35,311 nucleotides of DNA, taken from positions 1 to 35,311 of the forward strand of contig JAEEKI010000018.1 of the NCBI GenBank assembly GCA_016282375.1, written 5' to 3'. Position numbers and translations under genes: made by a program. The notes beneath the pieces are model-generated. The model was not told the origin of the DNA. It saw nothing but the letters and a program-made list of their open reading frames with translations, and ran no database searches. The DNA is from Caryophanales bacterium. GTDB lineage: Bacteria; Bacillota_I; Bacilli_A; RF39; UBA660. Position 1 is the stretch's first letter. Every line of letters starts with the position of its first letter. Below, piece after piece: positions 24,934 to 29,367 of this stretch.

Positions 24934-24962
24934 ATTATAACACCTGTGTCAAGGTTTGACAA
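24934..24962 (-). promoter_or_regulatory. rpsU-yqeY promoter
   Basis: Minus strand: TTGTCA (24962-24957), 17 nt, TATAAT (24939-24934) with TGT before it (extended -10). Confidence 0.8.
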
Positions 24963-24975
24963 GAAATTTAGTAAA

Positions 24976-25143
24976 CTAGCAATAGTTGTGAGATATTAGT
25001 CTACGCAAAGTTGAACCAAGATTTTGACCAACTCCATAAAAAGTCTTAATAACACTATTAAAAGCGTTTATTAAAGCAGCAGAGATGCCACCACCCATAT
25101 AAGAAAGCATTTGACTTTCGCTTAGTTTGATACTATCTTGCAT
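24976..25143 (-). CDS. Double-glycine leader peptide B, putative two-peptide bacteriocin subunit
   Basis: 55 residues from ATG 25143. An 18-residue leader ending 'KLSESQMLSYMGG' has Leu-12, Ser-11, Met-7 and Tyr-4 relative to the GG cut, the spacing of class II bacteriocin leaders. The 37-residue core begins GISAALINAF, is amphipathic/hydrophobic, contains GxxxG ('GQNLG') and ends in Cys. The gene overlaps the end of peptide A by 11 nt and has no ribosome-binding site, suggesting coupled translation and roughly equal output. The upstream exporter carries the C39 peptidase that cuts such leaders. A longer frame from 25173 lacks a ribosome-binding site and would bury the leader, so it is rejected. 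Confidence 0.75.
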   Translation of the reverse strand: MQDSIKLSESQMLSYMGGGISAALINAFNSVIKTFYGVGQNLGSTLRRLISHNYC

Positions 25144-25282
25144 TACAACTTTTTGGATTACTAATACCATCAATAATGCCTAAAATAAAAGCGCCAACTG
25201 CTGACAAAGCAACACTTAAAGCAAGGCTGATTTTAGCACCACCACTATAACTTAGGCATTCATCATCACATAATACTTTCAT
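25133..25282 (-). CDS. Double-glycine leader peptide A, putative two-peptide bacteriocin subunit
   Basis: 49 residues from ATG 25282, with AAAGGAG 5 nt upstream. Leader MKVLCDDECLSYSGG has Leu-12, Glu-8 and Tyr-4 relative to GG. The 34-residue core starts AKISLALSVALSAVGAFILG, is strongly hydrophobic, has GxxxG ('GIIDG') and one Cys three residues from the end. Two Cys in the leader itself are unusual. It lies 113 nt after the C39-peptidase ABC exporter and overlaps peptide B. The pattern (two adjacent GG-leader peptides, GxxxG in each core) is that of class IIb bacteriocins; no homologue is recognised by eye and no immunity gene is identified. Confidence 0.75.
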   Translation of the reverse strand: MKVLCDDECLSYSGGAKISLALSVALSAVGAFILGIIDGISNPKSCNAR

Positions 25283-25395
25283 CTTAACTCCTTTCTAAAA
25301 ATAATTACTTATTTTTGTTTTATTTAAAAAAGTTATTAACTTAAATATCACTAAACAGTTTAAAATCTTAATTACTAAAGGTACTACGTCAGAGT

Positions 25396-27459
25396 TTATA
25401 ATGGGTAATTAATGATTTTATTAACTTCTTCAAAATCAATAATTCGGTCAAACAAATTATTATGATTCTTGTGTGAGATATAAATAATAGTTTTATGAGG
25501 AAAATAAGTAACTAAATTGTTGATAATTTGTTCTTCAGTTTGGATATCTACTTCACTTAATGCTTCATCTAAAATAATAATATTACTGTTCTTTAAAAGC
25601 GCTCTAGCTAGAATAATTCTTTGTTTTTCTCCCCCTGATAAATCACTATAATTACTATCTATACCACTTTCGTAGCCAAATTGTTTCTTATTAGCAATTT
25701 TATCAATTAAACATATTTTGTTTACTAAAGATAAATTATAATCATTACCACCTAATAAAATATTATCTCTAATTGTTCCTGTAATTAAACCTTCTTTTTG
25801 ACTAACATAAGTAATATTTTCACGAATAGTTTTAATGCTATAATCAGAAATTCTTTTCCCAGCAATCAGAATCTCACCATTACTAGGATCATATATTCTT
25901 TCTAAAAGTGCACAAATTGTACTCTTTCCACATCCACTTTTACCTTTTAATAGTACTTTTTCTCCCTGCAAAACTTTAAAACTAACCTCTTTAAGAATAG
26001 GAAGATATTGATTGTAAGAAAATGTAACATTATCAAAAATAATATCACCATTAATAAAATCTGTTATCTCACCAAGTTGTTCTTCATCAATATCTAAAAA
26101 GTCACATATTTTTGTATAACTTGCTCGTAAATAATTAATTCTTGGTAAGAGATTACTTGTTGTCTTAATCGGCTCAATAAAATAGACCATTATGGTATTA
26201 AATAAAACCAAATCAATCAACGTAAATTCTGCCTTATAGATAAGATAAAAGCCGAATGTATTTAAAATAAAAGCCCCCATTTCTATCAACCAATTTTTAA
26301 CAGAATCAATAATATTAAATTTATTATTTACATCAAAGTTATCCTCGATTAATTTGCTAAAGTATTTCTCATTTCGTTGTTTAGCTATCATTTCAAGATT
26401 TAAATATTTATAAGAATTAATCATATGAATATTTTCTATCAAAGTAGCATTAAATGACGTTTGAAAATCAATATTTTGAGATACTCTTTGATAAATATAA
26501 GCATTTACTCCAATAGATAAAAAAATATAAAAACCTAAAAACACTAATAAAATAAGAGTCATATGAACATTAATCATTAATAAAATGACTAAAGCTCCAC
26601 ATCCTAAAACACTTTCGACTAATAAATCAATAAATATTTGTGAACATAAATCTTTAAAATTATACAATTCATTAATTCTAGTTACTATCTCCCCTGTTGA
26701 TTTACTGTTAATAACCTTTAAAGGAAGGTTAAAAACATGTTGCAAAAACTCATTTACAAGACTATTATCAATTCTTTTATTTAAATCATTTTCAAAATAA
26801 TTTTTAAGGTATTTAATAGTTGTTTTTAACAAAAGTACAAAGCCAAAAAACAGTATTATCGACATACTAATACGCTTTTGTCCATTAAATAGTTCATAAT
26901 TAATTTTTAAATAAAAACTATAGCCTATTGTTAAAACAACTAATAGCGTAGTACTTAATAACAAGTTAAAAACAATTTTTTTATTATTGATAATAATTTT
27001 ACTAAAACTATTCCACAAAGTATTTTGCTGTCCATAATGAACCAGATTGGACTTAGGAGATAATTCAATCACAACACCAGTAAAAATTTGCCAAAAATCA
27101 TCAGTACTCATTTTGACTTTACCCTTGGCAGGATCCATTAATATCACTTCGTTTTGACTCATATGATATAAGCACATAAAGTGATCTAAACCGTTGGTAT
27201 AATGAACATGAACAATCACTGGTAAAATAAGGTTTTCAATGTTTTTATCTAGATATTTTTTGGCCAAAGCATTAAAACCATACTTCTTAGCAGCATTCAC
27301 TAAATGATAGACCGTTGTTCCCTTAACTGATGTACAACAATCAAGACGTATTCTCTCTAAAGAAACGTAACCGCCATAAAAACGAATTATCGATTGAAGA
27401 CAAGTTGGTCCACAATCTTTAACATCACTTTGCTTTACAACTACAAGTTTTTGTTTCAT
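25396..27459 (-). CDS. C39-peptidase-containing ABC exporter (bacteriocin processing/export)
   Basis: 687 residues in three parts. Residues 1-~130 are a C39 cysteine peptidase with Cys16 in 'KDCGPTCLQS', His93 in 'GLDHFMCLY' and Asp109 in 'LMDPAKG', which removes double-glycine leaders. Residues ~160-430 hold the six-helix ABC membrane domain. The C terminus is the ATPase: Walker A 'GKSGCGKST', signature 'LSGGEKQR' and Walker B 'NIIILDEALS'. PCAT-type exporters process and secrete bacteriocins or signal peptides. Two GG-leader peptide genes follow directly. ATG 27459 has GGGAGG 4 nt upstream; GTG 27474 is in frame but overlaps that site. No accessory HlyD-like protein or regulator is nearby. 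Confidence 0.93.
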   Translation of the reverse strand: MKQKLVVVKQSDVKDCGPTCLQSIIRFYGGYVSLERIRLDCCTSVKGTTVYHLVNAAKKYGFNALAKKYLDKNIENLILPVIVHVHYTNGLDHFMCLYHMSQNEVILMDPAKGKVKMSTDDFWQIFTGVVIELSPKSNLVHYGQQNTLWNSFSKIIINNKKIVFNLLLSTTLLVVLTIGYSFYLKINYELFNGQKRISMSIILFFGFVLLLKTTIKYLKNYFENDLNKRIDNSLVNEFLQHVFNLPLKVINSKSTGEIVTRINELYNFKDLCSQIFIDLLVESVLGCGALVILLMINVHMTLILLVFLGFYIFLSIGVNAYIYQRVSQNIDFQTSFNATLIENIHMINSYKYLNLEMIAKQRNEKYFSKLIEDNFDVNNKFNIIDSVKNWLIEMGAFILNTFGFYLIYKAEFTLIDLVLFNTIMVYFIEPIKTTSNLLPRINYLRASYTKICDFLDIDEEQLGEITDFINGDIIFDNVTFSYNQYLPILKEVSFKVLQGEKVLLKGKSGCGKSTICALLERIYDPSNGEILIAGKRISDYSIKTIRENITYVSQKEGLITGTIRDNILLGGNDYNLSLVNKICLIDKIANKKQFGYESGIDSNYSDLSGGEKQRIILARALLKNSNIIILDEALSEVDIQTEEQIINNLVTYFPHKTIIYISHKNHNNLFDRIIDFEEVNKIINYPL

Positions 27460-27629: not shown

Positions 27630-28118
27630 ATGATTAACAAACAAGGTTTATGGTTTATTACCCTTTTTTCTTTAATTATCATCTTAGGAATCTACTATGT
27701 GTCTATACCCGATGATGCTTTAACGGTCTTCTCTGGTAATACAGAAGATACATCAACAACAATTGAAGTAACAGAATCAGATATTATCATCGCCATGAAA
27801 GTCGAAGAAGAAGAAAAAATACTCTCGCAAATGGATGAAGCACGCAAAATATTACTTGATGAAACAACATCTGTCACAGATAAAAATGAAGCCTATCAAG
27901 CCCTACAGCTTTTAAATTCTCAAAAAGGTAAAATAATGGAAATAGAAAAAATTATTAAAAAGGAATTTAATTATGAATCATGTGTAAATATTGACGGTAA
28001 TAAAATAAGTATTACGGTATCTAGTAAAGAAAGTAATACAAAAATAGCTAATAATATCATGACAAGAATTCAGCAACTATATGATCAACCAATGTATATA
28101 ACCGTTAAATTTCAGTAA
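27630..28118 (+). CDS. spoIIIAH: SpoIIIAH, mother-cell channel component of sporulation
   Basis: 162 residues: short N terminus 'INKQGLWFITLFSLIIILGIYYV' (one membrane helix), an acidic linker, then a YscJ/FliF-like ring-building domain ('ISITVSSKESNTKIANNIMTRI'). SpoIIIAH binds forespore SpoIIQ to form the channel between mother cell and forespore. It is shorter than in B. subtilis (218), with a reduced linker. It is alone: the other spoIIIA genes are not adjacent. Instead gerE and gerM follow. AGGAGG lies 7 nt before the ATG. It is divergent from the bacteriocin exporter. Confidence 0.85.
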   Translation: MINKQGLWFITLFSLIIILGIYYVSIPDDALTVFSGNTEDTSTTIEVTESDIIIAMKVEEEEKILSQMDEARKILLDETTSVTDKNEAYQALQLLNSQKGKIMEIEKIIKKEFNYESCVNIDGNKISITVSSKESNTKIANNIMTRIQQLYDQPMYITVKFQ

Positions 28119-28136
28119 TTACCCAGTTATTTCCTG

Positions 28137-28164
28137 CACTTAATAGTTTCTTTTTCATACAATA
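28137..28164 (+). promoter_or_regulatory. SigmaK-like promoter of gerE
   Basis: CAC (28137-28139), 16 nt, CATACAATA (28156-28164). This fits the SigmaK pattern (AC near -35, CATAnnnTA at -10), the factor that transcribes gerE in Bacillus. CATACAAT alone would also fit SigmaE, but there is no SigmaE -35 at the right distance. Confidence 0.6.
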
Positions 28165-28200
28165 TTATGAACAAGATAAGATATTAAGAAAGGAAAACTA

Positions 28201-28410
28201 ATGAAAAATAAAATATTAACTAAAAGAGAACAAGAAATATTTGAACTTTTAGTGGCTAATAAAACAACTAAAGAAATAGCTAAGCAATTAAAAATAAGTG
28301 AGAAAACTGTTCGCAATCACATCTCTAATACTATGCAAAAATTAGGAGTTAAAGGACGATGCAGTGCCATTATTGAACTTCTTAAATTACAAGCTATTTC
28401 CCTAAATTAA
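28201..28410 (+). CDS. gerE: GerE, late mother-cell transcription regulator
   Basis: 69 residues, consisting only of a LuxR/GerE-type HTH: 'LTKREQEIFELLVANKTTKEIAKQL' with recognition helix 'SEKTVRNHISNTMQKLGVKGR'. GerE in B. subtilis is 74 residues and is likewise a bare HTH acting with SigmaK on coat genes. A SigmaK-like promoter precedes it and sporulation genes flank it, which supports GerE over an unrelated LuxR-type HTH. AAAGGA lies 5 nt before the ATG. Confidence 0.87.
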   Translation: MKNKILTKREQEIFELLVANKTTKEIAKQLKISEKTVRNHISNTMQKLGVKGRCSAIIELLKLQAISLN

Positions 28411-28429
28411 AGCCTTAAGGGCTTTTTTT
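28409..28429 (+). terminator. gerE terminator
   Basis: 6-bp stem AAAGCC/GGCTTT with a 5-nt loop followed by a T run to 28429, beginning in the gerE stop codon. Confidence 0.75.
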
Positions 28430-28459
28430 GCATATAATAAAATCATAAAAATATACTTT
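28430..28459 (+). promoter_or_regulatory. Possible SigmaE-type promoter of gerM
   Basis: GCATATA (28430-28436), 15 nt, TATACTTT (28452-28459), close to the SigmaE pattern kmATATT / CATACAnT. gerM is SigmaE-dependent in Bacillus. The match is imperfect. Confidence 0.35.
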
Positions 28460-28473
28460 ATTAGGGTGAAAGT

Positions 28474-29367
28474 ATGTTACAAAGGCATATATTACTAAAG
28501 ATTATTAAAACGAGTATTGTTTTATTTGTCTTATTTCTTTTGAATATTTTTCCCCAAAATAATGATTATTTTAATGAAGAGGCAGCCCCTACTTTCCAAG
28601 ATACCATCCCCATCTATGCTATTGATCCAAATGGCTATGTAGCTCGAATTGAATCTCTAAAAGATGACAAACTAAATGATATCGAAAACATTATTAATCT
28701 TTTAACTAGTAATTCTACTAGTCATATCAATTTACCCCAAGGTTTTATTACTACTATACCATCAAATACCAAACTACTCTCTTATGAATTACAGGAAGGA
28801 CTTTTAAAATTAAACTTTTCCAAAGAACTCCTTAATGTGACCGATACTGAGAAATTAATTGAAAGTCTTATTTTTTCACTATGCGAGCTTGACAATGTAC
28901 AAAAAATCCAAATTTATGTTGAAAACAAGTTATTAGAATACTTACCTAATTCACTAAAAAGATTACCTACATACCTAGATAAAGATTACGGAATCAACAA
29001 AAAATACAATATTAATAATATTAAAGAAACTACCAAAGCCACCATTTATTATCTAGGTAAAGTACATAATACGATGTACTATATACCTATTACCAAAATA
29101 TCTAATGAAAAAATCGAAGCTGTCGAAGTAATTGTTCATGAACTACAAAATTCTCCTATTTATGAACCTAATTTAATCAGTTATTTAAATGCTTCCTATG
29201 AATTACAAGACTATCAAATATTAGAAAACACCATCTCTTTATCATTTAATAATCTCTTAATTGCCAATCTCGATGATCAAGATATCGAAGAAAAAGTAAA
29301 ATATACTCTAGCACTTTCTTTAAGAGATACCTACCATATCGACGATATAAATATCATTTTACATTAG
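28474..29367 (+). CDS. gerM: GerM, tandem GerM-domain sporulation/germination protein
   Basis: 297 residues: N-terminal membrane segment (~8-25), then two GerM domains (~45-165 and ~185-297), each with the 'II.LLT....INLPQGF...IPSNTKLLSY' / 'LKLNFSKELL' type of pattern and a final 'IQIYV' or 'INIIL' strand. In B. subtilis GerM is a SigmaE-dependent lipoprotein with two such domains that helps SpoIIIAH-SpoIIQ localisation; here there is no lipobox Cys, so it is probably membrane-anchored by its N-terminal helix. AGGGTGA lies 4 nt before the ATG. Adjacent to spoIIIAH, a functionally linked gene. Confidence 0.82.
   Translation: MLQRHILLKIIKTSIVLFVLFLLNIFPQNNDYFNEEAAPTFQDTIPIYAIDPNGYVARIESLKDDKLNDIENIINLLTSNSTSHINLPQGFITTIPSNTKLLSYELQEGLLKLNFSKELLNVTDTEKLIESLIFSLCELDNVQKIQIYVENKLLEYLPNSLKRLPTYLDKDYGINKKYNINNIKETTKATIYYLGKVHNTMYYIPITKISNEKIEAVEVIVHELQNSPIYEPNLISYLNASYELQDYQILENTISLSFNNLLIANLDDQDIEEKVKYTLALSLRDTYHIDDINIILH

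Follow-up and report, generated by a model that had tools for sequence, protein, structure and literature searches.

Most of what is known of two-peptide bacteriocins comes from lactic acid bacteria in culture, in which their occurrence is scattered and strain-specific, and bacteriocins in general are usually patchy in distribution and diversifying in sequence. The gene clusters of class IIb comprise at least five genes, including those for immunity and accessory proteins, and among the immunity proteins are CbnZ, a single helix with its N-terminus inside and its C-terminus outside, and other short ones of 42-55 aa (PMC6957408). In the case of gallocin A, the immunity peptide GIP has been proposed to mimic the bacteriocin (PMC10100652). 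The uncultured gut order RF39, from which the locus described here comes, has been reported to retain sporulation genes (PMC10868615), and the papers listed or read that join RF39 or UBA660 with bacteriocins gave no description of the present system.

The locus lies in a stretch of 35,311 nucleotides of a Caryophanales bacterium (order RF39, UBA660; assembly GCA_016282375.1, contig JAEEKI010000018.1), the whole of which we call the window. An earlier reading made from the letters alone (hereafter, the sequence-only reading) had seen there a C39-peptidase ABC exporter followed by two tiny overlapping genes of 49 and 55 codons, whose leaders carry hydrophobic residues at -12 and -4 and a GG cleavage site and whose cores both contain GxxxG, and our analysis bears out each of these features: the overlap is of 11 nt, the leaders agree in their Leu (-12), their Tyr (-4) and their GG (-2/-1), and each core has its motif (Table 1), as is true of both cores in 136/143 pairs. 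A Shine-Dalgarno-like AAAGGAG stands upstream of the gene for peptide A, and since no clear ribosome site of its own could be seen for B in the window sequence, translation of B is probably coupled to that of A. The overlap is limited to the close lineage of the window, most relatives having a small gap instead, and the locus owes its compactness to the lack of a gene that lies between exporter and A in most relatives (gene C, see below). The promoter-like site between B and rpsU makes it probable that the cassette ends at B and that rpsU is driven by a promoter of its own.

Table 1. Features of the cassette, in window coordinates
Feature	Position	Strand	Basis or remarks
C39-peptidase ABC exporter, 687 aa	25396..27459	-	Pfam Peptidase_C39, ABC_membrane, ABC_tran
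Peptide A precursor, 49 aa	25133..25282	-	leader and hydrophobic-helix core with GIIDG, C-terminal Cys
Peptide B precursor, 55 aa (from ATG)	24976..25143	-	amphipathic cationic helix core, GQNLG, LRR, terminal Cys
Overlap of A stop and B start, 11 nt, ATGCAAGATAG	25133..25143	-	sequence
Exporter-A gap; site of gene C (~135 aa) in most relatives	25283..25395	-	comparison with relatives
Promoter-like site in the B-rpsU interval, TTGTCA-17-TATAAT, second hexamer preceded by TG	24934..24962	-	pattern match only

The exporter contains, in this order, a C39 peptidase, an ABC membrane domain and an ATPase (Pfam E values of 4.7e-32 for Peptidase_C39, 1.5e-16 for ABC_membrane and 3.7e-29 for ABC_tran). 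None of the full-length NCBIfam models reaches its cut-off for this protein, the best being TIGR01193 with 340 bits (curated cut-off, 524 bits) and NF045998 with 299 bits, and scores so far under the cut-offs place it in a separate subfamily of C39-ABC transporters. It is the sole full-length relative in its own assembly, where the other matches cover the ABC part only, and a search of genome_contigs with it returned generic ABC proteins only. Relatives with E at most 1e-60 occur once per genome in 10/10 genomes of the genus, and at the strict threshold 177/243 genomes of the family have one.

Peptide A consists of the leader MKVLCDDECLSYSGG and the core AKISLALSVALSAVGAFILGIIDGISNPKSCNAR, and peptide B, which is single copy in its own genome (E 1.7e-19), of the leader MQDSIKLSESQMLSYMGG and the core GISAALINAFNSVIKTFYGVGQNLGSTLRRLISHNYC. 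Alignment of 66 relatives of A yields the family pattern GG, a variable stretch and FxxGxIDGxxRPxKC, with GG and G35 invariant and G39 and C46 at least 90% conserved; alignment of 62 relatives of B yields GG, ISAxxINA, xxIxxxGRxxGxAIRR and C, with GG and G43 invariant and G39 and C55 at least 90% conserved. Variants of GG of the GA/AG type appear in a few relatives beyond these alignments. The A core is a low-moment hydrophobic helix, with a median maximum hydrophobicity of 0.87 and a conserved acidic residue, and the B core is amphipathic, with a median maximum moment of 0.68 and a median charge of +3. No Pfam family matches A or B of the window, even at E 10; among NCBIfam models A has no match and B one weak, unrelated match, so that the bacteriocin models TIGR03949 and NF038034 leave the window's own peptides unmatched. 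Relatives of A do match them, 51/66 the lactobin A/cerein 7B model (TIGR03949; best E 5.6e-9) and 47/66 the lactococcin G-beta model (NF038034; best E 4.3e-9), whereas the relatives of B match TIGR03949 more weakly (21/62, best 1.7e-4). The analogy with class IIb that the sequence-only reading had drawn thus gains support at the level of the family.

We compared the window locus with class IIb feature by feature. It has two adjacent precursors, GG leaders, GxxxG in both cores and a C39-ABC transporter, and it has neither a membrane-fusion-like accessory protein for export nor a dedicated immunity protein; as these two genes are missing, we do not file it as a proven class IIb bacteriocin, and its formal membership of the class is unproven. 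The explanation that we prefer, with a probability of roughly 0.6, is that the locus is a dedicated secretion cassette for a two-peptide system of class IIb type, held as a core trait and probably antimicrobial.

How far this trait extends was the point at which the sequence-only reading fell short, in that its picture of a single compact and easily overlooked locus misses that the cassette belongs to an entire order. Profiles built from 66 A and 62 B precursors, which are more sensitive than the strict exporter threshold, found peptide B in 359/385 genomes of the order and in 289/305 of those of high quality (about 95%), usually in one copy. On these counts the cassette is a single-copy core trait of the order. 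Among about 258 genomes of the same class outside the order, B matches one and A two, in the leader half only. In another family, a complete genome of 0.8 Mb holds a stretch (G459:C1:578344-578430) that matches both profiles, again in the leader half only (E 2e-5). The genomes of the order measure about 0.4-1.9 Mb and keep sporulation genes including a spoIIIAH-like gene, and the class has complete genomes of 0.8-0.9 Mb and of 1.9-2.4 Mb.

Detailed reading of 155 loci, drawn from 153 genomes with one or two for most genera, showed exporter, A and B together, in order and on one strand in 147. The loci without the full trio are contig ends, one genome in which B lies elsewhere (G134), one locus in which B was not found (L087) and the window's closest relative, G004, in which there is an insertion. 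The reading frames, GG sites and GxxxG motifs, the decay of which in related genomes would have spoken against the sequence-only reading, proved to be conserved, and, contig ends and an inserted element aside, the exporter is almost never seen on its own, so that A and B as one exported pair are well supported. Of the 20 B-negative genomes listed, 16 are without any C39 domain, which indicates that exporter and peptides are kept or lost together; three others have a C39 domain at a contig end and one is G004. Variations on the arrangement were seen in single lineages: two related genomes have an extra GG-leader peptide before A that lacks GxxxG and Cys (L069:9444-9572 and L070:6232-6363), and in another a gene for 227 aa, methyltransferase-like to the eye and possibly inserted or modifying, stands between A and B (L106:4011-4694). 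A recent plasmid-borne acquisition was considered and rejected, there being 0 matches to peptide B among 72,556 plasmids and the cassette often occupying one and the same site next to rpsU.

In 16 pairs of related genomes the dN/dS values of A and B were mostly 0 to 0.25, like those of the exporter, the higher exceptions being A in three pairs (0.39-0.44) and B in the pair L067/L030 (0.63). These values indicate that A and B are under purifying selection, whereas arms races between strains would be expected to drive rapid change. They also bear on the idea that A and B are chance small ORFs after an unrelated peptidase-containing exporter, to which we assign virtually no probability: the ORFs are indeed short and the window peptides match no family model, but conservation across the genera sampled, invariant residues, low dN/dS and strict co-occurrence speak otherwise, and we regard the idea as refuted by the comparisons of conservation and dN/dS.

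Conservation of this kind also fits a cell-cell signal or a self-directed factor (a pheromone, or an envelope or sporulation-related function) leaving the cell by the same kind of exporter and serving as no weapon. In the window the cassette is followed downstream by rpsU, yqeY, a yabP-like gene and yqfD. Upstream it adjoins a divergent cluster at 27630-29367 (+) made up of a spoIIIAH-like gene, a gerE-like regulator (LuxR-type, 69 aa) and a Germane-domain gene. Of the 155 loci read, 31 have a spoIIIAH-like gene close to the cassette and 25 a gerE-like one. These neighbors, the core conservation and strong purifying selection, the weak matches of some family members to ComC or EntF pheromone models, and the absence of an immunity gene from the window and most relatives are all in keeping with a signaling or self-directed role. 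The commonest neighbor is nevertheless rpsU (68 loci) rather than a sporulation gene, no histidine kinase or receptor was found to recur beside the cassette among the neighbors in these loci, and two GxxxG helices together with a membrane-anchored B-like protein (gene D, below) suit pairing in a membrane better than a diffusible signal. We consider this role unlikely, albeit one that deserves to be kept in mind next to the antimicrobial cassette that we favor.

A feature that ties the two peptides to each other is the cysteine near the C-terminus. There is usually one Cys per core, exactly one in 131/143 A and 131/143 B, so that the arrangement of gallocin, with two Cys per core and an intramolecular bond, is not that of the window, each core of which has one. 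Once artefacts and duplicates had been taken out by hand, the terminal Cys was present in both peptides in about 142 pairs, in neither in three, and in no pair in one peptide only. Five odd cases of the automatic tally were inspected singly: L063 is a contig end, in L069 and L070 extra peptides had been taken for A or B, L065 is without the terminal Cys in both peptides, as is L030 (not parsed by the script), and the fifth, L067, has tandem A/B pairs. In this last locus (L067:5881-6451, genome G053) the second pair has no C-terminal Cys in either peptide. The single pair of G186 (L030), which is related to it, is likewise without terminal Cys in both. The three Cys-less pairs represent two independent joint losses, one in G001, of the window's own genus, and one in the g45 lineage. 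That the terminal Cys is kept or lost jointly suggests a disulfide between the A and B chains through their C-terminal cysteines; what counts against it is that the bond would have to form outside cells whose habitat is probably the anoxic gut.

The gene between exporter and A in the relatives, gene C, encodes a protein of about 130-160 aa with one helix and usually overlaps or abuts the end of the exporter. It is present in about 100/142 loci, A and B persisting without it in 42. The AlphaFold model (pLDDT 92) combines a single membrane helix with a beta domain, and Foldseek relates it weakly to the membrane-fusion proteins BesA, ZneB, MacA and Spr0693 with a probability of at most 0.97, E of 0.16 or worse and TM of about 0.4; no direct homology to solved structures was found. 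Judging from the model, C is probably a miniature membrane-fusion accessory protein for export. An immunity function was rejected as the main reading of C on account of the 42 loci in which A and B persist without it and of the predicted fold, helix and beta domain, which is weakly like that of membrane-fusion proteins.

Gene C is absent from the window, from the whole of its own assembly and from the sister G004, and the sub-lineage of the window has evidently lost it. In G004, moreover, A is broken up by a mobile-looking segment (L057:6560-10175) that carries a ParB-like gene followed by one for a large surface protein, and the profile search found no peptide B. One could read from the loss of C and from this disruption that the window copy is the relic of a former bacteriocin, decaying in a lineage that has shed its accessory and immunity genes. 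We find this improbable, because exporter, A and B are undamaged in the window and every conserved residue is in place, both C-terminal cysteines among them, the dN/dS of the exporter against G004 is 0.20, and several lineages besides that of the window have likewise kept A and B without C.

In 41/147 loci (about a quarter) a further gene, D, starts inside the end of B and encodes a leaderless peptide of 39-70 aa (mostly 45-60) with a basic N-terminus, predicted as one long helix (pLDDT 89). D peptides were picked by requiring two nearby glycines, with no condition on the residues after them, and the motif G...G[TSN]..R is found in 31/41 D, 115/143 B and 0/143 A, the expectation for shuffled D being 0.02. 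In hhalign the D profile aligns with that of B along 38 columns (92%, P 6e-7, which the choice by glycines makes look slightly better than it is) and has no match to that of A. The idea that each D copies the B of its own locus was not supported, the resemblance to that B being no greater than to the other B peptides (p 0.11). D may be considered a candidate immunity peptide copying the GxxxG motif of B. Mapped on a tree of the exporter made with FastTree only, D shows at least 27 changes and C at least 14, counts that include contig ends, while A and B stay. About 100/147 loci are without D although A and B are kept, the sub-lineage of the window has no D, and in the window we recognized no immunity gene, the D profile matching in the genus only B itself or parts of larger ORFs.

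Taking these results together, the cassette that we favor might work as follows. The C39 domain would cut after GG and the exporter would secrete the cores, of which A would form a mostly hydrophobic membrane helix and B an amphipathic helix of positive charge with Arg and Cys at its end. Both helices would pair via their GxxxG motifs in the target membrane, probably tied in most species by a disulfide between their single C-terminal cysteines, and the pair would permeabilize or otherwise disturb neighboring cells, most likely close relatives. D, in the quarter or so of relatives that have it, would protect the producer by replacing B beside A, and C, in most relatives, would probably assist export.

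What speaks most strongly against a plain bacteriocin is the lack of a visible immunity gene in the majority of loci, that of the window among them, when nearly every genome of the order has the pair; immunity may be encoded elsewhere, the target may be non-self, or the function may be signaling or self-directed. That the pair is core to the order with low dN/dS, and that A and B of the window match no bacteriocin model, also count against the bacteriocin reading. A more specific proposal, which we advance only tentatively, is that of a vertically inherited, order-wide system of two chains whose helices are covalently linked at the C-terminal cysteines, with some lineages protected by a copy of one chain anchored in the membrane, and with a standing role across the order (kin antagonism or a self-directed envelope function) in place of a strain-variable weapon.

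A bacteriocin-like pair and exporter that are nearly universal in one order of small-genome bacteria are unusual when set against strain-level weapons. If the pair kills, it would be a weapon common to all of the order and would offer well over a hundred variants from nature; if not, a two-peptide architecture of this kind can evidently take on a core role in physiology. The joint presence or loss of Cys and the likeness of D to B give two mechanistic ideas, covalent pairing and immunity by mimicry, that are directly testable.

Compared with known systems, the exporter shares its domain order with PCAT1 and other C39 peptidase-containing ABC transporters (TIGR01193, and NF045998 of the Mbov_0121 family) and differs from TIGR01193 in scoring under the curated cut-off; the leaders of A and B are weakly like that of CtA, the substrate of PCAT1 (E 0.029 and 0.11). 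With the class IIb bacteriocins of TIGR03949 (lactobin A/cerein 7B) and NF038034 (lactococcin G-beta/enterocin 1071B) the locus shares GG leaders, an adjacent precursor pair, GxxxG and a C39-ABC exporter, and relatives of A match these models with E down to 4e-9, whereas the window differs by matching neither model, by its order-wide core distribution, by one conserved C-terminal Cys per peptide and by having no dedicated immunity gene. The D peptides of the relatives, absent from the window, are short like CbnZ (42 aa), BrcI, EnkIaz and AbpIM, with one helix, a basic N-terminus and a position right after the second peptide gene, and differ from these in the recognizable copy of B's GxxxG motif. 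Gallocin A of Streptococcus gallolyticus (GllA1/GllA2/GIP) also has two GG-leader peptides with cysteines (PMC10100652), but there two Cys within each peptide form intramolecular bonds, whereas here each peptide has a single C-terminal Cys that is kept or lost in step with that of its partner.
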